Assembly (NCBI GenBank): GCA_009782875.1
Contig: WRIE01000009.1
Span: forward strand, 1 to 64,000
Direction of reading: 5' to 3'
Source: Eubacteriaceae bacterium
Lineage (GTDB): Bacteria; Bacillota; Clostridia; Eubacteriales; Anaerofustaceae
DNA: 64,000 nt
Shown: in pieces, positions 6,517 through 40,200 of the stretch
Numbering within the stretch: position 1 is the stretch's first letter
How the letters are laid out: each line of letters opens with the position of its first letter
Position numbers and translations under genes: made by a program
The notes under the pieces: model-generated
Seen by the model: the letters and a program-made list of their open reading frames with translations, nothing else
Told to the model about the DNA's origin: nothing
Databases searched by the model: none

Positions 6517-9500
6517 TAATCACCCCTGCATACGCAGGGCATACCAAAAACGAAAAAAAGAATTCATAACCCATCCGGAATCACCCCCGCATACGCGGGG
6601 CATACAACTGCGCCACATTCGGAAACTTGGTTGTGCCGGGATCACCCCCGCATACGCGGGGCATACACTGCTTAATGCGATACCGCTTTCCAGTCTTTGG
6701 GATCACCCCCGCATACGCGGGGCATACATCACTTCCACAAAGCCGCCAGCGTCAGGATGGGGATCACCCCCGCATACGCGGGGCATACTCCAACGTAAAA
6801 CTCCATGCATTCGCCGCTGGGGGATCACCCCCGCATACGCGGGGCATACATATCTGAAGTCACGCCCGGAACGCTGACAGCGGGATCACCCCCGCATACG
6901 CGGGGCATACTGCCAGTATTGGAGTCGCGTCAGGATCCAGCTGGGATCACCCCCGCATACGCGGGGCATACAACTACATCGAGTTTTTGCCATTCGAGAG
7001 CCAGGGATCACCCCCGCATACGCGGGGCATACCGCATTTTGTCCGGCTGCTCGATAGCCACCGGGGGATCACCCCCGCATACGCGGGGCATACGCTATGT
7101 GAGCAAGAAACACAGCGCGGGCAAGGGGATCACCCCCGCATACGCGGGGCATACCCTGGCAGAATGTGCCAATAATATTCGACACAGGGATCACCCCCGC
7201 ATACGCGGGGCATACTTCCTGCTCCGGCAGGTAGACTCCCAAATTGAGGGATCACCCCCGCATACGCGGGGCATACCCCCACAACCATGTCAACCTTGCC
7301 CGCGCTGTGGGATCACCCCCGCATACGCGGGGCATACTGCGTATAAACCGCATCCTCTGTCATCACATGGGGATCACCCCCGCATACGCGGGGCATACTC
7401 CAAAAAGGTATGGATCAAGGGTTTTATGCTGGGATCACCCCCGCATACGCGGGGCATACAGCCTACATCTTGATACTAGGACAGCCAAGTGGGGATCACC
7501 CCCGCATACGCGGGGCATACATCAATTGTAGAAGGCGAACCAGTACCAGACAGGGATCACCCCCGCATACGCGGGGCATACATCAATTGTAGAAGGCGAA
7601 CCAGTACCAGACAGGGATCACCCCCGCATACGCGGGGCATACCCCTCCAGCTTTCCGCCGACTCTGGCGGGGCAGGGATCACCCCCGCATACGCGGGGCA
7701 TACAGCATATAGCGCATTTATTTGAGCGGCCGTTGGGGATCACCCCCGCATACGCGGGGCATACAACAAAGCGATAATAAACGCAGAACCATTAGAGGGA
7801 TCACCCCCGCATACGCGGGGCATACGCAAGCAAGCAATGAGATGCCCCACTGCGTTAGGGATCACCCCCGCATACGCGGGGCATACTGCCCCATTCACTT
7901 AATCAGCTTCCTTAGCGAGGATCACCCCCGCATACGCGGGGCATACCCGGGATTGCGCAGCAAGAGACTGCGGCTGTAGGGATCACCCCCGCATACGCGG
8001 GGCATACAGCTCTGGCTGAACTTGGAACATGCCTGCTATGGGATCACCCCCGCATACGCGGGGCATACTCAACTCTACGATATCATGCCGGATCACTGCC
8101 AGGATCACCCCCGCATACGCGGGGCATACGCTTAATTGCTGCTTCTAAAGATGGCAATAAGGGGATCACCCCCGCATACGCGGGGCATACACAGCCACAT
8201 GACGTGGATTTACCACTGACTAAGGATCACCCCCGCATACGCGGGGCATACGATGATAGATACTCATACTATTCAGGCACGACGGGATCACCCCCGCATA
8301 CGCGGGGCATACCATCATCAGGAGGCCAGGGGGCTAGGAGGAAAGGGATCACCCCCGCATACGCGGGGCATACAAAATTGTCAATTTTGCCCATACAGAG
8401 CACATGGGATCACCCCCGCATACGCGGGGCATACGGCCCCCTCCATGACTCCAGAAAGGCCAAGAAGGGATCACCCCCGCATACGCGGGGCATACGAAGC
8501 TAATATATTTGAATCACACCATTTGAGGGGATCACCCCCGCATACGCGGGGCATACTCCTGCTTGGCTAATGCGATTAGGCTTGCCAAGGGATCACCCCC
8601 GCATACGCGGGGCATACTTCTGATTCTAGCTCTAGCTTTGATACGGCCTGGGATCACCCCCGCATACGCGGGGCATACGCTGGCAAAGTATAGCCATGCC
8701 CCCGCCTAGCGGGATCACCCCCGCATACGCGGGGCATACCAGCATAAGTCACTTGTAGTACAATGTAGACAGGGATCACCCCCGCATACGCGGGGCATAC
8801 GCAAAGCGTTTTTGCGCTAAAAAAAATGGAGAGGGATCACCCCCGCATACGCGGGGCATACGTCCCGGAAGGGGAGCCGACTAAGCGCCGCCTGGGATCA
8901 CCCCCGCATACGCGGGGCATACTGGAAATTGGAAATTAGGAATTGCGAATGTGTGGGATCACCCCCGCATACGCGGGGCATACTGAAGCCTTCCGCTCCA
9001 GCATTCGGGTTGTCTGGGATCACCCCCGCATACGCGGGGCATACTCGCCGATGTTGGCAGAAGCCCCAACGCCATGGGGATCACCCCCGCATACGCGGGG
9101 CATACCACACCGTTTTATAATATGCGCAAAAACTATAGGGATCACCCCCGCATACGCGGGGCATACAGGGAATTTGACTATGAAGGGGCTTTCGGGATGG
9201 GATCACCCCCGCATACGCGGGGCATACAAGTCAACGACTCCCCCAGAACCTCATAGGTTGGGATCACCCCCGCATACGCGGGGCATACGAATTGCGGCTT
9301 TTGCAGCTCTTGCAGTAGGCGGGATCACCCCCGCATACGCGGGGCATACAACAAGATAGGCACACGCATGTACCCGCTATAGGGATCACCCCCGCATACG
9401 CGGGGCATACGCACTGGCATGATTAGCGCATAGCCTTTATCCGGGATCACCCCCGCATACGCGGGGCATACAATTCGCTATTTGTTGCTTTTCCAGCCCG

Positions 9501-10630
9501 GCTGGGATCACCCCCGCATACGCGGGGCATACACGAGTCGCCAAATGCGCAAGAGACCACCAAGGGGATCACCCCCGCATACGCGGGGCATACCCTTTAT
9601 TCTTTCAGTCAAGGTTTCGTCTTCGGGGATCACCCCCGCATACGCGGGGCATACCCGGGAATTGATTGATTCCCACCAAGATTTAGCGGATCACCCCCGC
9701 ATACGCGGGGCATACCTTCTTGACTGGCGGCTCTACCTTGCCAGGCAGGGATCACCCCCGCATACGCGGGGCATACGGCGCGAGGATCGATTTTAAGGTG
9801 CCTCTGGAGGGATCACCCCCGCATACGCGGGGCATACCGATGCTGGCGTGTTGATGCTGCGTATTGACAGGGATCACCCCCGCATACGCGGGGCATACTA
9901 TGACTGCCCGGAAATTGACACGATTGTTGTGGGATCACCCCCGCATACGCGGGGCATACAGCCTGTGCCAGAAGGCATGTGGCTGAAATTAGGGATCACC
10001 CCCGCATACGCGGGGCATACCGATTTTTGTTAGTGTCAAAATTGCATCTGGCGGGATCACCCCCGCATACGCGGGGCATACTCGGGGCCAGGGGGATCGT
10101 GGCCAGGGGGATCGGGATCACCCCCGCATACGCGGGGCATACCACCTCGCTTCCGGTGTAGGCTTGGTAGGCTTGGGATCACCCCCGCATACGCGGGGCA
10201 TACTCTGCCTAATTCCTTCATTTCGTCGTCTTTTTGGGATCACCCCCGCATACGCGGGGCATACTGGAAATTGGAAATTAGGAATTGCGAATGTGCGGGA
10301 TCACCCCCGCATACGCGGGGCATACCAAACCGTTCTGATCGCCTAATTTCCCCCATGGGGATCACCCCCGCATACGCGGGGCATACGCATCCTCCACAAT
10401 CACAAGCTATGAACCTGAGGGATCACCCCCGCATACGCGGGGCATACTATCGGATGCCCTTGGCAAAATCGGCATGATGGGGATCACCCCCGCATACGCG
10501 GGGCATACATCCGATAGCGATAGATGCCAGCAATACAATTGGGATCACCCCCGCATACGCGGGGCATACAGGATCTTGATATTGGATATTTGGAATTCAG
10601 GGGGATCACCCCCGCATACGCGGGGCATAC
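6517..10630 (-). CRISPR. Type I-E CRISPR array, 68 repeats / 67 spacers
   Basis: 28-base repeats at a constant period of 61, giving 33-base intervals (one interval of 32, before the repeat at 7919). In crRNA orientation (minus strand) the repeat begins GTATG, has the stem CCCCGC-GTAT-GCGGGG, and ends GTGATCC, the first seven bases of the 8-base 5' handle. Direction is set by the cas2 side (10630) being the leader end and by the only decayed repeats lying at the other end (6517 with four changes, 6578 with one). The base after the repeat is C for 63 of 67 spacers by my count (T before repeats 7919, 8102 and 8224; G before 9688). That matches a PAM-derived 29th repeat base, as in E. coli I-E. 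The many near-perfect repeats suggest a recently active array. Confidence 0.99.
7521..7614 (-). repeat. Tandemly duplicated spacer-repeat unit
   Basis: The 33-base spacers at 7521-7553 and 7582-7614 are identical, separated by one repeat. This looks like duplication of one 61-base unit by recombination or slippage rather than two acquisitions. Confidence 0.95.
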
Positions 10631-10655
10631 ACTAATCAAATCCCATTACAATCAG

Positions 10656-13238
<2,583 letters not shown>

Positions 13239-13239
<1 letters not shown>

Positions 13240-13895
13240 TACGGTCCCACCCCTTCAAATGCATCATGCTCTGTTTTATACCCATTGTGTTGTTGTGTAT
13301 GGGTTTTTATATAGCGATAGGTGTATTTTCTATGTGCTTGGCTGAAACTAACCGGCAAGTCGCGTTGCCTGTAAACACCAACTTCATCTGTATCCATATA
13401 CAAAGTAATATTTACAGGCTCATCATTTCTCTTAGAAGCCTCGAATGGTTCGCTTAATAAAGCCTCTTTCAACGGCACTTCTCGCACACCCAAGCATATG
13501 CGCCCTGTGGGCGGACAAGAACGCCGCCCTAAGAACAAAGGGAAAAACGGCGAATTTACAGCTGATTCAAGCGATTTCAGAAACTCGGTATTTCCTTCCA
13601 AACCTACCAAAAAAACCGCATCTTCAAGATAAAGTCGTTTCGTTACATATGTTTGCTTAGGACCGAGCGCTGTGTGGAAATCCATAACAATCTGCCCCGC
13701 CTTATCTACACGCACTCCGAATTTTAATCCGGCTAAATCATCAACAGGCTCATTTCTCCTACGCCCAAGTGCTGCAGCTAAAAGCCCAATTACTCCGCTT
13801 TTGCTTGGCTCCCTCTCTGTCGCCCGCCTTTCAAATTTGCTTTCGGTTCCCCATGCCTGCAGTGGCGCAGCTAGTCGAAGCAGCAAGGTGCTCAT
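13239..13895 (-). CDS. cas5e: Cas5e, Cascade subunit gripping the crRNA 5' handle
   Basis: 218 residues, normal length. The N-terminus LLLRLAAPLQAWGTESKF followed by RATEREPSKSGVIGLLAAALG is the classic Cas5e signature. Later blocks (YVTKRLYLEDAVFLVGL; PFFPLFLGRRSCPPTG) are the conserved beta-hairpin thumb region and the RAMP core. Cas5e binds the 8-base handle GTGATCC+N and Cse1. It overlaps the cas7 stop by 4 bases and runs into cas6e. No anomalies seen. Confidence 0.96.
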
Positions 13896-14953
13896 GAGGT
13901 GACCTTCTTCACTGCTTCTTTGGCAGCTTCTTCGAGCATCTCATTTATATTCAACTTTTGGCCAAGTTCTATGGGCAGTTCACCAAGTATATAACTGGCT
14001 TCAGGTTTTGCACAAAAGTCTGCATAGACTCTAACAGCGTGCTCTGCAAAGGCTATGGTAGATGGTTTTGTAAACCCTTCTTCTGGTTTAATTGGATTCT
14101 CAAAAGCGTCTGCAAGATTTAGCGGGCGGTCAGGTCGCAGACTAACCAGTGCTGCATACGGCAGGGTATGGGCGGCAAAAGTGTTTTGCTTTCCGCTTGG
14201 CATTGACAGAAGGAAAGCGCGATTGAATTCGATCAATGCCTTTTCCAAGGCTTTTGGATCCTCGGATAGTTGGCTGAACAGCTCATGGACAGCTACTGTT
14301 GCATAGCGATACAAAGTTGCGGAGTTGTATTCTACAGTGCCTATCATGCCAGCACCTGCGTGATCCTCGGTGGACAAATCATCAACAGCGGTAAAGTAAT
14401 CGTATTCATTTTCTACACTATGTGTTGATATCGCATGTGCAACTTGCGCAGAAGCATCACAGTTAATCTCAGGATTAGACGCAACCATACGCCCAAATAA
14501 GGCTAAATCAATCCCATTATTTACCTTTAGTGTTTGAACCACAGCTTTTGCAATGTCTTTTTCTTCTAAATTGCCAAGTGCCAGGTTAGCCAAATTCTCA
14601 GCCTGCTGGGTGGACAAAAAGAAAAGAGCGTCTGATTTTTCAGCATTCTTTTTAGACGGTTCTACCTTAGCTTTTTTAAAGATCTCTTTGGCAAGCCTTA
14701 GTGCCTCTTCATTGCTGCATCCAGGAGACTTATCTTGTATTTTTTCAGCAACAAGGTCAAAAATCCTTAAAGTACGATAACTCAATTCGTTTTTGTCTAA
14801 GTATTCACTAAACATCAGGCGCATGGCGCGTTTCCACGATTGCGAAGACACCCGGGCACGACGCACTCCGCCGTAAACTGCAGTTTTTGGGCTGCCTGTG
14901 TCGTCTCGATTTAAACAGCTCGGTGGCACTGATTGAATCACGTGTATATCCAT
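13892..14953 (-). CDS. cas7e: Cas7e (Cse4/CasC), Cascade backbone
   Basis: Multiple copies form the helical backbone of Cascade, each covering six guide bases and flipping out every sixth. 353 residues from the ATG at 14953, which has GAGG about 7 bases upstream and gives the family N-terminus MDIHVIQSVPPSCLNRDDTG. An ATG at 14965 that overlaps the cse2 stop is less likely. Conserved blocks are GSPKTAVYGGVRRARVSSQSWKR and the central finger region GRMVASNPEINCDASAQVAHAISTH. Length is as in E. coli CasC (about 360). Confidence 0.97.
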   Translation of the reverse strand: MDIHVIQSVPPSCLNRDDTGSPKTAVYGGVRRARVSSQSWKRAMRLMFSEYLDKNELSYRTLRIFDLVAEKIQDKSPGCSNEEALRLAKEIFKKAKVEPSKKNAEKSDALFFLSTQQAENLANLALGNLEEKDIAKAVVQTLKVNNGIDLALFGRMVASNPEINCDASAQVAHAISTHSVENEYDYFTAVDDLSTEDHAGAGMIGTVEYNSATLYRYATVAVHELFSQLSEDPKALEKALIEFNRAFLLSMPSGKQNTFAAHTLPYAALVSLRPDRPLNLADAFENPIKPEEGFTKPSTIAFAEHAVRVYADFCAKPEASYILGELPIELGQKLNINEMLEEAAKEAVKKVTS

Positions 14954-14961
14954 AAATAACC

Positions 14962-15519
14962 TCATTTTTTATCCGTCCTTTCAACTAAAGTGTTTTCATT
15001 AAAATCTATGCGGTAAAACTGTTTGCCCCATTCCAGGCGGATCCGATTTTTTCGTTCCGGAAATTGGAAATAATATAGTTCGCTCGCAAAACGAGGGTAA
15101 TCCAACTTAATATTATTTGATTTTAGTAGCTGTACCAGACCTCTGGCATGGTAAGCGAGCTCAGAAAACTCCAGGGATGTCGCAACTGCATTAAACCGGC
15201 GTCGTATTGCAACTTCGTTGTCGGGATTTATCACTATTAGCTTTGATATGGCAGTTCCAAACCCCGTTTCTTGATCACACATGCTCTCTTCTTTGCCTTG
15301 CCTGTGAAGGGCATATAAAGTGAGACATGCATGTATAGCTTTTCCGGATATTTCGCCTTCCGGCGCACCTTGTATTGTTATGTCCCAAACATCAGGAGCT
15401 TCTTCACGAAGCTTGCCAACAGCTCTACGTAATTTTGCACAAGCGGCTTTGCTGTACGGCTCGTCCTTATCAAGCAGAGCGATTTTTGCGCTTACAAAAC
15501 GTCTTATCTCTCTAGACAA
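14962..15519 (-). CDS. cse2: Cse2 (CasB), Cascade small subunit
   Basis: Alpha-helical belly subunit that stabilises the R-loop. An open frame extends upstream into cse1, but a TTG at 15517-15519 has a strong AGGAGGTG Shine-Dalgarno 6-7 bases before it and starts right after the cse1 stop (15521-15523). This gives a normal 185-residue protein beginning (M)SREIRRFVSAKIALLDKDEP. The family pattern of Lys/Arg-rich helices is visible (SKAACAKLRRAVGK; FNAVATSLEFSELAYHARGLVQLLK). Sequence conservation of Cse2 is low, so position in the operon carries part of the call. Confidence 0.88.
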   Translation of the reverse strand: MSREIRRFVSAKIALLDKDEPYSKAACAKLRRAVGKLREEAPDVWDITIQGAPEGEISGKAIHACLTLYALHRQGKEESMCDQETGFGTAISKLIVINPDNEVAIRRRFNAVATSLEFSELAYHARGLVQLLKSNNIKLDYPRFASELYYFQFPERKNRIRLEWGKQFYRIDFNENTLVERTDKK

Positions 15520-15520
15520 T

Positions 15521-17149
15521 TTATTCACCTCCTCTCTGCTGGGTTGCTTCGCCCAGCTTTTTAAAAATGTTGCCAACAAACCATCCGTATACCTTTGGCG
15601 TGCTATAGTAGTCTTCCTTTGCGCCAAACTTGACAGTTCTTCCAACAAAAGCTTGTGTACCTGCTTGTGAAACAAGAAATTCACCATGGTCCAAAATTAT
15701 TTTTTTAGCTGTATCAAGCCAATTGCCACACTCCTCTACAATGTCTGAGGTGCTGCGGTCAATGGATGCGAGCCAATTCCTAAAAGGTATATCCAGTCCC
15801 GCATATGCTTGTTGCATAGCTAGTTCTCTGTAATTATCCCCATTAGGAGATCCAGCTGCCCGCTCGATATTTGAGGCTAGATTGCCCAGAATTCTAACTA
15901 AGTCTTCCGTTATTTTTACTATATCTGCGATCCGGTCAATCCATTCACTTGCCAGATCCGATAAAATATTTGCGTTTACTGAAAGCGAATCGCTCCAAAC
16001 CTCATCTACGCCACTTTGCATATTGCCATATTTTATTGACAAAGTGCTAATTTGGATTTGCTTGGAAGGGATAATGTTTTCATACTCTAATTCAGAGATC
16101 CAACGCAGTATGCCTGGCTTGCGGCTTTTTTCGGAACCTCCCTCTGTCTCTGATAGCAGCGGAGCAAAATCGCGCCAAAGATGTCTTGCTGGGTTTCTTG
16201 CAGCGTTGCTAGGTGGTAAAAACATATCTCTTTGGCCAGATTTGCCTTTGGAAAACCTCCACATGGTCATAGGCTCTACAAATGCCTCCTCGCTGTTAAA
16301 TTTATCTCCACCTAGCAGCGTAAACCCTGCGACTTTATTGTCATGGTATTTTAGCTGGATACGGCGTGATTGCAGAGTGAACAATTCTTCACCGCTACCA
16401 GGCATAGCAATAATCGTTCTTTCGCTGGTGCGAGGCTCAGCTAATTCCCATACTGCCTTGCCGTTTTCCCAAGGTTTGCTGTCATTCAAAAGCGAAAAAT
16501 TCAGCATCAACGTCTCAAATAAGTTTTCGCCTGTAACATAAACTAGACCTAATTGGCCGAGCCAGCCCACACTCATGGACTCCAACCCTTTTCGACTCGG
16601 CTTGGCTGAAGCATCGTCAAAACTATTCAAATATAGCAGCCAACGTGCGGCTTCAGGGTATTCTAAAAACTGCTTTCCCGCACCGCTGCGGGTAGGGAAA
16701 AGTTGCGCTTTATTGCCGCCTTCAACTAGTTCGCCAATCATTTTTGAAGCCATAAAGTCGCTGCCTTTTTCGATTTTAACAACTTGGTAAAACGGCCTTT
16801 CTGGATGTCTCAGCCAGAATCTGTCATGGTGCTGCATTAAGTAGCCTTTAATTTCGTTTTCTGGAAAGTGTCCACACTCCCATAAATCTTCCCATATTCT
16901 TATACACGCATCCTTGCTTTCATCTTCTTGCGCTTCCCAGTATTCCTCTGTGCGAGTATATATTGGATAAAGCACCCCTAGTAGCAACCTCATTATTGCT
17001 AAATCCTGTGATGGCATTTCACCTGATAGGCTTTTAAGTTCATGGCTGCGAATTAGAACGTCTATTAGTGATAGCATCTCTTCATCACCTTTGAGGTTTG
17101 TTACTATAATCCATCTTTCATCAAGTAGGTTGAATATTGTATTTTCCAT
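15521..17149 (-). CDS. cse1: Cse1 (CasA), Cascade large subunit
   Basis: Recognises the PAM and recruits Cas3. About 542 residues from the ATG at 17149, which has AGGAG 8 bases upstream; an in-frame TTG at 17167 lies before that SD and is unlikely. The N-terminus NTIFNLLDERWIIVTNLKG and the later WRDFAPLL segment fit the family, and the C-terminal part is a four-helix bundle. First gene of the cse1-cse2-cas7-cas5-cas6e-cas1-cas2 operon, which has overlaps or minimal gaps throughout. Transcribed from the promoter at 17224-17252, the apparent target of the nearby crRNA-like guide. Confidence 0.95.
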   Translation of the reverse strand: MENTIFNLLDERWIIVTNLKGDEEMLSLIDVLIRSHELKSLSGEMPSQDLAIMRLLLGVLYPIYTRTEEYWEAQEDESKDACIRIWEDLWECGHFPENEIKGYLMQHHDRFWLRHPERPFYQVVKIEKGSDFMASKMIGELVEGGNKAQLFPTRSGAGKQFLEYPEAARWLLYLNSFDDASAKPSRKGLESMSVGWLGQLGLVYVTGENLFETLMLNFSLLNDSKPWENGKAVWELAEPRTSERTIIAMPGSGEELFTLQSRRIQLKYHDNKVAGFTLLGGDKFNSEEAFVEPMTMWRFSKGKSGQRDMFLPPSNAARNPARHLWRDFAPLLSETEGGSEKSRKPGILRWISELEYENIIPSKQIQISTLSIKYGNMQSGVDEVWSDSLSVNANILSDLASEWIDRIADIVKITEDLVRILGNLASNIERAAGSPNGDNYRELAMQQAYAGLDIPFRNWLASIDRSTSDIVEECGNWLDTAKKIILDHGEFLVSQAGTQAFVGRTVKFGAKEDYYSTPKVYGWFVGNIFKKLGEATQQRGGE

Positions 17150-17223
17150 AATCCAATCTCCTATCAATTAAGGATTCATTTTATTACAAGCATCCCAATT
17201 AGCTAATGTTATTATGCAATAAA

Positions 17224-17252
17224 ATTATAACAAGTACATTATGTTAAGTCAA
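17224..17252 (-). promoter_or_regulatory. Promoter of the Cascade operon
   Basis: Minus-strand TTGACT (17247-17252) and perfect TATAAT (17224-17229) with a 17-base spacer, the best sigma-70 promoter in the locus. RNA should begin near 17217, leaving a leader of about 70 bases before cse1. Confidence 0.8.
17229..17250 (+). promoter_or_regulatory. Putative Cascade operator: PAM + partial protospacer for the crRNA-like guide
   Basis: AAC at 17229-17231 followed by AAGTACATTATGTTAAGTC (17232-17250). The guide at 17341-17359 reads AAGTAGATTATTTTATCTG. Positions 1-5, 7-11 and 13-15 are identical; mismatches fall at 6, 12, 16, 17 and 19. Positions 6 and 12 are not read by Cascade. The site fills the interval between the -35 and -10 of the cse1 promoter, so binding should block RNA polymerase. 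Regulation is inferred. Confidence 0.7.
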
Positions 17253-17309: not shown

Positions 17310-17387
17310 ATTTCGCCCTGCTTGTTGCGGGGGTGATCCAAAGTAGATTATTTTATCTGTATTGCCCTGCATTTGCGGGGAATAGCA
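17310..17387 (+). ncRNA. CreR-like degenerate mini-CRISPR (pseudo-repeat / 19-nt guide / pseudo-repeat)
   Basis: Pseudo-repeat 1 (about 17311-17340) has stem CCCTGC-TTGTT-GCGGGG and then GTGATCCA; seven of the eight 5'-handle bases equal the array repeat. The guide is 17341-17359. Pseudo-repeat 2 (about 17360-17387) starts TATTG and has stem CCCTGC-ATTT-GCGGGG, but its handle region is degenerate (AATAGCAA). This is what is needed for one crRNA: a 5' handle from the first repeat and a 3' hairpin from the second. The orientation is plus, opposite to the cas genes. Known analogues are crRNA-like RNAs (CreR class) that guide Cascade to repress cas promoters. Expression is not shown by sequence. 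Confidence 0.75.
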
Positions 17388-17390
17388 ACG

Positions 17391-17424
17391 GGCTTGAAAT
17401 CTGCATTAGTTTTCAAGCCTGTTT
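17391..17424 (+). terminator. Possible terminator of the crRNA-like RNA
   Basis: GGCTTGAAA (17391-17399) pairs with TTTCAAGCC (17411-17419), an 11-base loop, followed by TGTTT. The T-tract is poor. It lies between the mini-CRISPR and the convergent cas3 3' end (17435). Confidence 0.45.
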
Positions 17425-17434
17425 ACCAATTGTA

Positions 17435-20047
17435 TCAATTGTTTTTCACTTGCAATCCAGTCAATTTGCTATAGTGAAGTTGGTGACCGTCAACAACGGC
17501 ATTTTGGTCTTCGTCCAGAATCAGAACTAATGAGCCTCTAAGCCAATAAGATTCATACCAGCTATCCACTATGCCTGCCAAAACCATTTCTACTTCTATA
17601 CATTCAATTGTCTGGTTGATGTCGTAACTGAAGAGCAGAGGCAAACGCACGGAGCAGCCAGCAATAATTTTAGCCATTTTGTCGGATGGGGTATAAACAG
17701 TTAACAATTCTCCATTTTCTACCCATGGCAATAGGCAAAGCTCTCCGCCTCGCCGCTGGACTACTAATACCTCTATTGCATCCATGCCATCTCTAACAGC
17801 CGCTTCGCCTTCACTATCGTAATACGAAGTTTCAAGCCACCCTATTATATTTTTATCCAAGAGGCTTCCTTTGATTTGATAGCTTTCCGCACGGCGTTTT
17901 CTGTCTTTTGCCCTTATATCATTGTCATTACGGGCTTTTTCATATTCCTGTACAAATTCCCCAGGAGGGCCAACGTCAAAATCATCATTGTAAACCTGTG
18001 CTACTAACTGTGGGATATCATCAGGCAAGCTGATACTTGAAGACCATTTTTCCAATACTCTGCAGGTGCGCATTAATAAATATTCCCCGTAGACAGCCTT
18101 AGAGCCATCATCAAAACTTCCCCAATTCGCATCCAACACATAACACTTCGGCAGCTTGACACCATTGGGGCGGGATATCCTATCGTGCCTATGCAATCGC
18201 CCTATCCGTTGCAATAGCAAATCCATGGGGCACAGTTGCGTAAACATCACATCAAAGTCGATATCCAACGACTGTTCAAAGATTTGCGTGCCAACAACAA
18301 TATGCTTTTTATAGCGCTGCGCCGAGTCTTTTCCCAGTTTCAAAAGCAAATGCTTTTCACGCTCCGTTCTATCTCTAGCAATAAAACCTGCGTGAAGTAT
18401 CTCTACTATGTCATGCCCAAATTTTTCAGCTATCATTTCGTAAGCCTGTTGGGCGTTTTTTACAGTATTGAAAATAAGAGCTGCACAACCGCCATCTTCC
18501 AATACCGTGGCCAGTATCTCTAACACCTTGTCTTGGACAAGCATTTCAACGTCTACCACTTTGCTCCTGCCAGCTGTCCGGGCTTCAATTGGAAGAGACT
18601 TGACATCTTTTCCGTCAGTATACGTAATAAGTGGATATGCCAAAGAAGTTGCCCAATCAGCACCATCCTTGGAACTCAACCTGCTGTTTCTCTGTTTTTT
18701 GCCAAAATAAGCTTCTATGAGTGATTTACGCCTCTCTGTCGGCAAGGTTGCGGATAACACAATAATCGGCACACCATATGCGCCAAGCCACTTTACAGCT
18801 GTAAGCAAAAAGCTCTCCATATACACATCATAAGCGTGACATTCGTCTATAACCACTATTTTGCTGGCTAAACCCAAGTGCCTGAGCGCCAAATGCTTCT
18901 GCTGTAAACCTGCCATCAAAACATGGTCTATTGTGCCTATAGCAAAATCCGCCAGTATACCTTTTTTTCGCCCAACCAGCCAGCTGTCAACAAACACAGC
19001 GCCCCCTTCAGCATCTTCTTCATCAGCTTCCCTGTGGTAGGCAGAAAGCTTAATGCCTTCATATTCTTCGTTAAAGTCAGCCTTGCCGTGGGCTAAGCGT
19101 ATGCTAAGCGATCCGTCTTGTCCATCAAAGTTTTGAATCCAATTTTTAACCCTGGTAAGCATTGCGTTGGATGTTGCTTGTGATGGCAAGGCAAAATAAA
19201 CTCCGCGGCAACCAATCTTGCTTGCGAGAACTTCAGAGGCGGCGAGTGCCGCCTCAGTCTTGCCTTCTCCCATTGGAGCTTCTACAATAAAAATACCAGG
19301 TGAAAGTGATAATGAGGCAGCATCTAGCAGCTTCGATTGCACAGGCCGCGGAGTATCTATTTCAAAGCGGCGTCCATATATGTTCTCAGGAATATTAGGT
19401 ATCCACATTGTAGGCAATTTATCCTCTGGTTTGCCGCTTGCTATCCAGTCTGCCAGAATTACAAGACCGCTATATAACACTTGTTGTGGGCGTGCTATAT
19501 CTTTATGTAATGCAGTTTCTTTGGTCAAACCCGCTTCTCGCAAGGCCTCTTCCATCAGCGCATCTTGAGCTTGTACCCATGAATCTTCATCAAAACCGCA
19601 ATTATCTTTATACGTCTCGAGATCCTTGATTTGGTTCTTAGTCGGCGGTGAGCCATGATGGCCTCCAACAATAACACTTACCGAATCTTTGAAGCCATGG
19701 CGTTTTAATATGCCAAATGAAACCAGAGCATGGGGAGTGCGTTTCTTCATTTGGTAGCTTTTAATGACATAACCGGCTCTGAGAAGACCATTGAGTATCT
19801 TCTCATCTGTTTCAAAAGTGTTATAGTCTTCTTTGGTTTGAAATACAGGGCTTGCTTTGCCTAAGTCGTGTGCGTAAGAAAGAAATATGAATAGATTCCA
19901 ATCAAGCTGCTCCTGCAAAACCCTAGGAAGCCAGTCATCCCATAGCATTCTTGCAACATCAGCTGTTTCAAAAAGGTGCGTTTGCAACGGCACAATATCG
20001 TCCGGTTCATCAATCTTCGGCTTCTTTGCCCATAATGCATTTAACAT
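17435..20047 (-). CDS. cas3: Cas3 HD nuclease-helicase, type I-E
   Basis: Recruited by target-bound Cascade to unwind and degrade DNA. 870 residues, normal length. N-terminal HD nuclease: HLFETADVARML, the LSYAHDLGK motif, and VGGHHGSPP. SF2 helicase core: motif I EAPMGEGKTEAALA, motif II VVIDECHAYD, motif III LSATLP, motif VI LLQRIGRLHRHDR. A C-terminal domain follows. It is separated from cse1 by 285 bases holding the mini-CRISPR, so it is probably a transcription unit of its own. Start ATG at 20047 with only a weak SD. All motifs appear intact. Confidence 0.97.
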   Translation of the reverse strand: MLNALWAKKPKIDEPDDIVPLQTHLFETADVARMLWDDWLPRVLQEQLDWNLFIFLSYAHDLGKASPVFQTKEDYNTFETDEKILNGLLRAGYVIKSYQMKKRTPHALVSFGILKRHGFKDSVSVIVGGHHGSPPTKNQIKDLETYKDNCGFDEDSWVQAQDALMEEALREAGLTKETALHKDIARPQQVLYSGLVILADWIASGKPEDKLPTMWIPNIPENIYGRRFEIDTPRPVQSKLLDAASLSLSPGIFIVEAPMGEGKTEAALAASEVLASKIGCRGVYFALPSQATSNAMLTRVKNWIQNFDGQDGSLSIRLAHGKADFNEEYEGIKLSAYHREADEEDAEGGAVFVDSWLVGRKKGILADFAIGTIDHVLMAGLQQKHLALRHLGLASKIVVIDECHAYDVYMESFLLTAVKWLGAYGVPIIVLSATLPTERRKSLIEAYFGKKQRNSRLSSKDGADWATSLAYPLITYTDGKDVKSLPIEARTAGRSKVVDVEMLVQDKVLEILATVLEDGGCAALIFNTVKNAQQAYEMIAEKFGHDIVEILHAGFIARDRTEREKHLLLKLGKDSAQRYKKHIVVGTQIFEQSLDIDFDVMFTQLCPMDLLLQRIGRLHRHDRISRPNGVKLPKCYVLDANWGSFDDGSKAVYGEYLLMRTCRVLEKWSSSISLPDDIPQLVAQVYNDDFDVGPPGEFVQEYEKARNDNDIRAKDRKRRAESYQIKGSLLDKNIIGWLETSYYDSEGEAAVRDGMDAIEVLVVQRRGGELCLLPWVENGELLTVYTPSDKMAKIIAGCSVRLPLLFSYDINQTIECIEVEMVLAGIVDSWYESYWLRGSLVLILDEDQNAVVDGHQLHYSKLTGLQVKNN

Positions 20048-20189: not shown

Positions 20190-20990
20190 CTCAAAAGAAC
20201 TGAAATGAATGACAAAACAAACATTTGGCAAAATGTGCTCCAGCGCCTTTCGCAAACCTTCCACAGCCTCCGGCAATTGTCGGCTCATCCGAATGATCTT
20301 TCAACAATCCATCTTTTGGGAAGGACTATGAACATATGGGCCTCGTTGCGCTTGACAATCTCGACTTTCGCGTCAACCAGCCCTTTTATTGCGTTTGCAA
20401 AGCTCTCTCCACTATAAGCGCTGTCGGCTAAAACAGTCTCGACGCTCTCGTATTTGCCGGAATTAATTGCAGCCAGCTCTATTGCCCCATCCCTGTCTGT
20501 AAAATCGGCTGTCGTGGCATGTACGCCATGGGGCAGCCCTAAAATGTCAACCGCCAAGTGCACTTTCGCCCCTGATATTTTTTTTCCCCGCATCATAGCC
20601 TTTCTCGATTGCTGTGAATGTGTTTTTAATGCTTTTTGAGTCGATGGGCTAGGGCTTCTCCCGTTTATGATCCGCTCTGACATAGCTAGCTCTTCTAAAC
20701 TTCCTCAAAAGCGCTGCGCTCATCGTGTCCTGTGTAGTTTTTTTTGCCCCCCATTTTCGATAATGGCAGTAAACATCCTCCCATTTCGGAAAGTCGTGGG
20801 GCAATGCCCTCCATCTGCAACCTTCGCGTAAAACATAAAGTATTGCGCAAAAAATATCATAAAGGTCATATGTGTATGGCCTTGTTGATTTGGTGGCTGA
20901 CTCTAAAAATGGCTTGATAATCTCGAATTGGTCTCTAGTTATGTCGCTTGGATATTTTTTCTCATATAAAGGTAAATAGCCTTTTATTGT
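20190..20990 (-). pseudogene. Decayed IS5-family transposase
   Basis: A minus-strand reading that must change frame recovers an IS5-type DDE transposase. The N-terminal DUF4096-like part is FEIIKPFLESATKSTRPYTYDLYDIFCAILYVLREGCRWRALPHDFPKWEDVY, split here from the catalytic part IDSKSIKNTFTAIEKGYDAG / KISGAKVHLAVD, TADFTDRDGA, ADSAYSG and the C-terminal KRWIVERSFG. A run of eight As near 20578 shifts the frame. A TGA after ERSFG (20285) replaces the usual Trp before ADNCRRLWKVCERR. There is also a disruption near 20690. I could not identify terminal inverted repeats, so the element ends are unknown. Not expected to be active. Confidence 0.8.
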
Positions 20991-39757: not shown

Positions 39758-40200
39758 TCTGTGCGCCTCCCTTCCTGCTTTTAGATTAATTGGCCAAGAC
39801 CGTTCAGCCCTTCCTCAGGCTAGTGTCCAAGCACTATGGCTTCTGCTGGCTTCTCGCCTTCAGGGCGCATCCCTGCGCCCCTTCTGTACGCGGGGTCCTA
39901 TTCGCTCCACACCGCGCAGCCTAGCGAGACCTCCCCGGGCAAGGGCAACTGCTTTCCCCCCATCTGCCCGCTGCATTTACACTAAGGGGTTTGTGCAGTG
40001 TTGGGCTTTGCCTTCTAATGCAGGCTTACCCGCCCCAATTGCGCCTTTTATGCAATTTCTGTTCGCCGGGCCAGGGTTTTGCCTCCGGCTTCCTTCAGAT
40101 CGCGCCTTGCGGCGCACACCCTTGCCATTGGCTAACAGTTCCCACTGCAAAGCTTGTAGCGGACTTTCACCGCCAAGCTGTTGCCCATGCCGGGCACACA

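Follow-up and report, generated by a model that had tools for sequence, protein, structure and literature searches.

A mini-CRISPR at 17311-17388 on the + strand, located between cas3 and cse1 of a type I-E cas locus, very probably encodes a CreR-type cas-regulating RNA, such that Cascade carrying its guide would bind the cse1 promoter and repress its own operon. This reading is based on sequence comparisons made within the window, which is the whole 64,000-nucleotide stretch of DNA that was analysed (contig WRIE01000009.1), and with related loci. That real, selected self-control operates here too is strongly supported by unrelated guides in three other genomes. Autorepression by CreR was described by Liu et al. 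(2023, Cell Host Microbe, doi 10.1016/j.chom.2023.08.005) for types I-B, I-E, and V-A, and according to passages of PMC13131331, PMC12737573, and PMC12948488, the operon encoding Cascade is repressed by Cascade that has taken up the guide; given these passages, the mechanism is not new. The window locus adds three things: guide and promoter covary naturally across four type I-E loci, the guide is very short, and cas3 falls outside the controlled unit. Set beside the same passages, the window and CreR are alike in having a crRNA-like RNA that derives from a mini-CRISPR and is partially complementary to a cas promoter, whereas the site in the cas3-cse1 gap, the 19-nt guide, and the controlled unit without cas3 are features of the window.

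The window contains a complete and intact type I-E cas locus on the - strand, in which cas3 is followed by cse1-cse2-cas7-cas5-cas6e-cas1e-cas2e/DnaQ (Table 1). All of the Cascade genes, cas6e, and cas3 are present, and the locus thus supplies a cognate type I-E Cascade and Cas6e. The cas2e gene carries a fused DnaQ-like 3'-5' exonuclease domain; such cas2e-DnaQ fusions are known from some type I-E systems. The gap between cas3 and cse1 measures 285 bp and holds the mini-CRISPR on its + strand.

Table 1. Coordinates of the mini-CRISPR, its putative target, and the cas locus in the window
Feature	Position	Strand	Remarks
canonical CRISPR array	6639..10631	-	66 repeats, 61-bp period; source of competing crRNAs
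cas2e-DnaQ fusion	10656..11639	-	TIGR01873 at residues 1-85; DnaQ-type models at ~140-325
cas1e	11636..12646	-	TIGR03638
cas6e/casE	12619..13239	-	TIGR01907; nuclease expected to process the mini-CRISPR transcript
cas5/casD	13239..13895	-	TIGR01868
cas7/casC	13892..14965	-	TIGR01869
cse2/casB (Cas11)	14962..15687	-	TIGR02548
cse1/casA (Cas8e)	15521..17149	-	TIGR02547 above cut-off; first gene of the controlled operon
cse1 promoter (predicted)	17224..17252	-	-35 TTGACT 17252-17247, 17-bp spacer, -10 TATAAT 17229-17224
putative PAM AAC	17229..17231	+	immediately precedes the target
target (protospacer) AAGTACATTATGTTAAGTC	17232..17250	+	within the cse1 promoter
R1, first degenerate repeat	17311..17340	+	TTTCG CCCTGC TTGTT GCGGGG GTGATCCA; stem folds
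guide (spacer) AAGTAGATTATTTTATCTG	17341..17359	+	19 nt; directly after the handle GTGATCCA
R2, second degenerate repeat	17360..17388	+	TATTG CCCTGC ATTT GCGGGG AATAGCAA
strong hairpin after R2	17387..17423	+	fold z -5.17
cas3	17435..20047	-	cas3_core and cas3_HD above cut-offs; upstream of the gap, outside the cse1 transcription unit

The mini-CRISPR consists of two degenerate, repeat-like hairpins (R1 and R2) around the guide, the length of which would be 18 nt if the G at 17359 were assigned to R2. Two repeat-like sequences beside cas genes, as is characteristic of CreR, are therefore present in the cas3-cse1 gap. R1 has kept the stem and the 8-nt 5' handle GTGATCCA (17333-17340) but departs in its 5' flank from the canonical repeat of the window array, GTATGCCCCGCGTATGCGGGGGTGATCCC; R2 has kept the stem (3' handle), and the 5'-handle sequence that followed the Cas6 site is gone. 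The same pattern of decay, with R1-like versus R2-like divergence, was reported for the repeats of creA, which are still Cas6 substrates (PMC8501985). Identity as a canonical CRISPR array was rejected on the basis of the degenerate repeats and of a spacer of 19 nt versus approximately 32 nt; spacers elsewhere in the same genome are 32 nt long. A sigma-70 promoter for the mini-CRISPR was sought on the + strand of the window and none was convincing. The strong hairpin that follows R2 likely terminates the guide transcript, the convergent cas3 transcript, or both.

The guide pairs with the target at positions 1-5, 7-11, 13-15, and also 18, and misses it at 6, 12, 16, 17, and 19, which amounts to 14 of 19 positions overall. 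The alignment bore out the count of 13 matches among the first 15 positions with misses at 6 and 12, as given in an earlier note on this DNA, together with its distance of about 90 bp between guide and target; the accompanying claim that mismatches are confined to every sixth base is correct within positions 1-15 and fails beyond them. The predicted cse1 promoter scores 11/12 against the consensus. The target spans the entire promoter spacer plus the last four bases of the -35 element, and the PAM reaches onto the first base of the -10 element, so the earlier placement of the site exactly between -35 and -10 is right in that the spacer is covered and otherwise slightly loose. A PAM-flanked partial complementarity to the promoter of the cas operon, as in CreR, was thus found. 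When both an AA PAM and the every-sixth-base rule were required, no match as good arose in 20,000 shuffles of the region or in 20,000 shuffles of the guide. With the rule dropped (13/15 anywhere, AA PAM), 4 of 10,000 shuffled regions and 7 of 10,000 shuffled guides did as well. The interrupted seed, a pattern that Cascade reads, is present at a single site in the 3.19-Mb genome, and tolerating one mismatch adds no further site. No phage sequence matched the canonical array of the window when such matches were sought as a direct reading of the PAM.

The cse1 loci of relatives, of the class, and of the phylum were surveyed by measuring the gap from the upstream ORF to cse1, and about 47 type I-E loci were examined. 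The gap was nearly always ≤40 bp; two gaps of ~70 bp had no hairpin pair, and only four exceeded 200 bp, namely those of the window, L010, G625 (locus L058), and G907 (locus L088). Every one of these large gaps held a mini-CRISPR, with cas3 as the upstream gene and cse1 as the downstream gene. The four guides are mutually unrelated, and each finds its match in the cse1 promoter of its own locus alone, with the seed interrupted in the same way: the matching run on the own promoter was 13 in the window, 13 in L010, 7 in G625, and 12 in G907, versus 1-4 when guides and promoters were cross-paired. Guide and promoter have therefore stayed matched in four loci while both diverged, as expected of CreR.

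The closest relative, L010, was the one locus obtained from a single scan of genome contigs for relatives and belongs to a metagenome-assembled genome titled Oscillospiraceae bacterium Co191P3bin39 (contig WQSX01000020.1), the cse1 of which is 68% identical; a search for relatives in viral contigs by means of cse1 yielded none. Its 33-nt guide matches its own cse1 promoter region beside an AAC PAM at 13/13 read positions, with a mismatch at position 6; the exact pattern occurs once in that genome and was equalled with the PAM in 0 of 20,000 shuffles. An extended -10 element (TGC TAAAAT) lies near the first repeat of this mini-CRISPR. In G907, an AAT PAM is followed by AGTGT.ATATG.GG, with 12 matched positions, mismatches at 6 and 12, and a target on the -10 element (0 of 20,000 shuffles). 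In G625, an AAG PAM is followed by matches at positions 1-5, 7, and 8 (seven in all) with a mismatch at 6 (10 of 20,000 shuffles). The targets of L010 and G625 lie just upstream of the -35 element, not on the core promoter, and the guides of L010, G625, and G907 are full-length, unlike the 19-nt guide of the window. At 1278-1500 of L058, the same design was observed in a distant, GC-rich genome, where the match is limited to the seven-base type I-E seed.

At its third base, which had been left free in the search, the PAM agrees in all four loci with the final base of the local canonical repeat (C in the window and L010, T in G907, G in G625), a comparison made with only two repeat copies for L010 and two for G907, and with a C in 62 of the 66 copies in the window. 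In E. coli, the last repeat base derives from the PAM (PMC10011333). Three layouts were distinguished, in which the mini-CRISPR is divergent from cse1 (window and L010), on the same strand upstream of the promoter (G625), or in the cse1 leader (G907). In the last of these (L088, 1230-1500), the cse1 transcript carries the mini-CRISPR in its leader, downstream of the promoter that the guide matches, and the guide would in this way restrict its own production as well. A two-repeat, one-spacer array was also observed directly upstream of cas3 in a genome of the same family (L022, G004:C10:60000-65500, ~2465-2555); no PAM-flanked target of its guide was found locally, and it was retained as a negative example. 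The two-repeat stretches seen in L027 and L082 were rejected as portions of longer arrays, and L074 was tested and no target was found.

Among the alternatives, the one that survives best, and is still improbable, is that the element is the remnant of a decayed ordinary CRISPR array, with a spacer match that is incidental or self-acquired and without current function. The degenerate repeats, the short guide, and the failure to find a clear promoter for the mini-CRISPR favour such a remnant, as does the array of G004, from which it follows that arrays of this kind can exist lacking a regulatory match. However, each of the four gap mini-CRISPRs matches the promoter of its own locus and fails to match the other three, guide and promoter would not remain matched under decay while both change, and the stems of R1 and R2 and the handle are preserved.

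A CreTA-like function, by which the guide would repress an RNA toxin from the 5' part of the cse1 transcript and loss of Cascade would be punished, is slightly less probable again. The window resembles CreA in having two divergent degenerate repeats, in pairing at 1-5 and 7-11 beside a PAM, and in the dispensable positions 6 and 12, whereas its target is a cas promoter in a type I-E system with no credible creT and that of CreA is a toxin promoter in a type I-B system (PMC8501985). The guide is of the same design as CreA, and the 68-nt cse1 leader of the window contains a six-codon ORF (MLVIK-stop, 17174-17193, - strand) with one AUA codon; this ORF, however, lacks a ribosome-binding site at proper spacing and has no counterpart in L010, the leader of which is only ~34 nt and holds only M-stop and VIGG-stop. 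In each of the four loci, cse1 is the gene that follows the target promoter, and the locus was not classed as CreTA, since cse1 and not a toxin RNA gene stands under the guide-controlled promoter.

It is less likely still that the element is a plain antisense or attenuator RNA, or that its hairpins are merely the cas3-cse1 terminator, with no involvement of Cascade. The target lies upstream of the predicted transcription start and is therefore absent from the cse1 mRNA, antisense pairing would give no meaning to a PAM or to mismatches at 6 and 12, and the guide always starts exactly after the handle; the strong hairpin at 17387-17423 and the closeness of the match to the transcription start speak for this alternative. 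Chance similarity of two AT-rich stretches, to which the AT-richness of the region and the 8% of shuffled regions reaching 11/13 read positions without a PAM requirement might point, is regarded as refuted by the shuffle tests with the PAM given above for the window, L010, G907, and G625.

Under the preferred reading, that of CreR-type self-control by Cascade, the mini-CRISPR would be transcribed from the + strand, and both repeats would be cut by Cas6e to release a crRNA-like RNA of ~48 nt starting with GUGAUCCA. Cascade would take up this guide RNA, form a short R-loop across the promoter spacer, and exclude RNA polymerase, and expression of the cse1-cse2-cas7-cas5-cas6-cas1-cas2 operon would be lowered in proportion to the Cascade free to load the guide. 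Abundant canonical crRNA, or anti-CRISPR proteins disabling Cascade, would take the repressor away, and cas expression would rise. Because canonical crRNAs compete with the regulatory RNA in the published model, the signal would be Cascade that is unoccupied by canonical crRNA. Pairing ends at approximately position 15 of the 19-nt guide, so Cas3 should not be licensed for cutting of the chromosome. The earlier proposal of Cascade self-repression, with derepression on loss of Cascade, stands as the best explanation in light of the guides of the three other genomes, with two amendments: cas3 is outside the guide-controlled unit in the window, and the signal is refined as above.

Repression by CreA is ~26-fold and Cascade-dependent, with pairing at 1-5 and 7-11 needed and sufficient and changes at 6 and 12 tolerated (PMC8501985). 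Type I-B guides shortened to ≤26 nt or ≤24 nt were found to repress without cleavage (PMC10551041; PMC10989794), and no evidence for repression by shortened guides in the E. coli I-E system was noted in PMC10551041. The main doubt about type I-E repression comes from E. coli, in which transcription did not change upon off-target binding of Cascade via short seeds and repression at promoters was weaker with PAM-distal mismatches (PMC5904413). A tentative possibility, rather doubtful at present, is that the 19-nt guide gives a shrunken Cascade with about two fewer Cas7 subunits, the near-complete short R-loop of which would repress strongly and be unable to call Cas3; if true, this form would solve the weak repression otherwise expected of partial matches in type I-E systems. 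Speculatively, a 19-nt guide with almost no unpaired distal part may be an adaptation against such weak repression. Since the guides of L010, G625, and G907 are full-length, a short guide does not seem to be required.

In type II-A systems, a natural long-form tracrRNA directs Cas9 to repress its own promoter via a partially matching guide. The likeness to the window lies in an effector acting with a partially matching natural guide on its own promoter; the tracrRNA system differs in that effector and RNA are unrelated to those considered here and the guide is within the tracrRNA, not in a mini-CRISPR. According to a passage of PMC13131331, in which the work is cited, this autoregulation of Cas9 responds to anti-CRISPR proteins. 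The window is also similar to the E. coli type I-E locus, where the promoter of the Cascade-Cas1-Cas2 operon (Pcas8e) is separate from that of cas3 and a divergent promoter (anti-Pcas) lies opposite; Pcas8e is silenced by H-NS, whereas the gap in the window instead holds a guide RNA gene (PMC10011333).

Together with its three independent partners, the locus is a clean example from nature of a guide and a promoter that changed together, and this constitutes strong sequence evidence for selected type I-E self-regulation. It offers a search rule, namely a large cas3-cse1 gap, and a natural short guide by which the minimal pairing for type I-E Cascade repression without cutting could be gauged; it could also be used to ask whether anti-CRISPR proteins raise cas expression. 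In the surroundings of the locus, an IS5-type transposase-like fragment was read from an ORF translation just upstream of cas3 (20285-20683, - strand), and the group II intron RNA domains RF02001 and RF01998 were observed at 39807-40116 (- strand) of the window.
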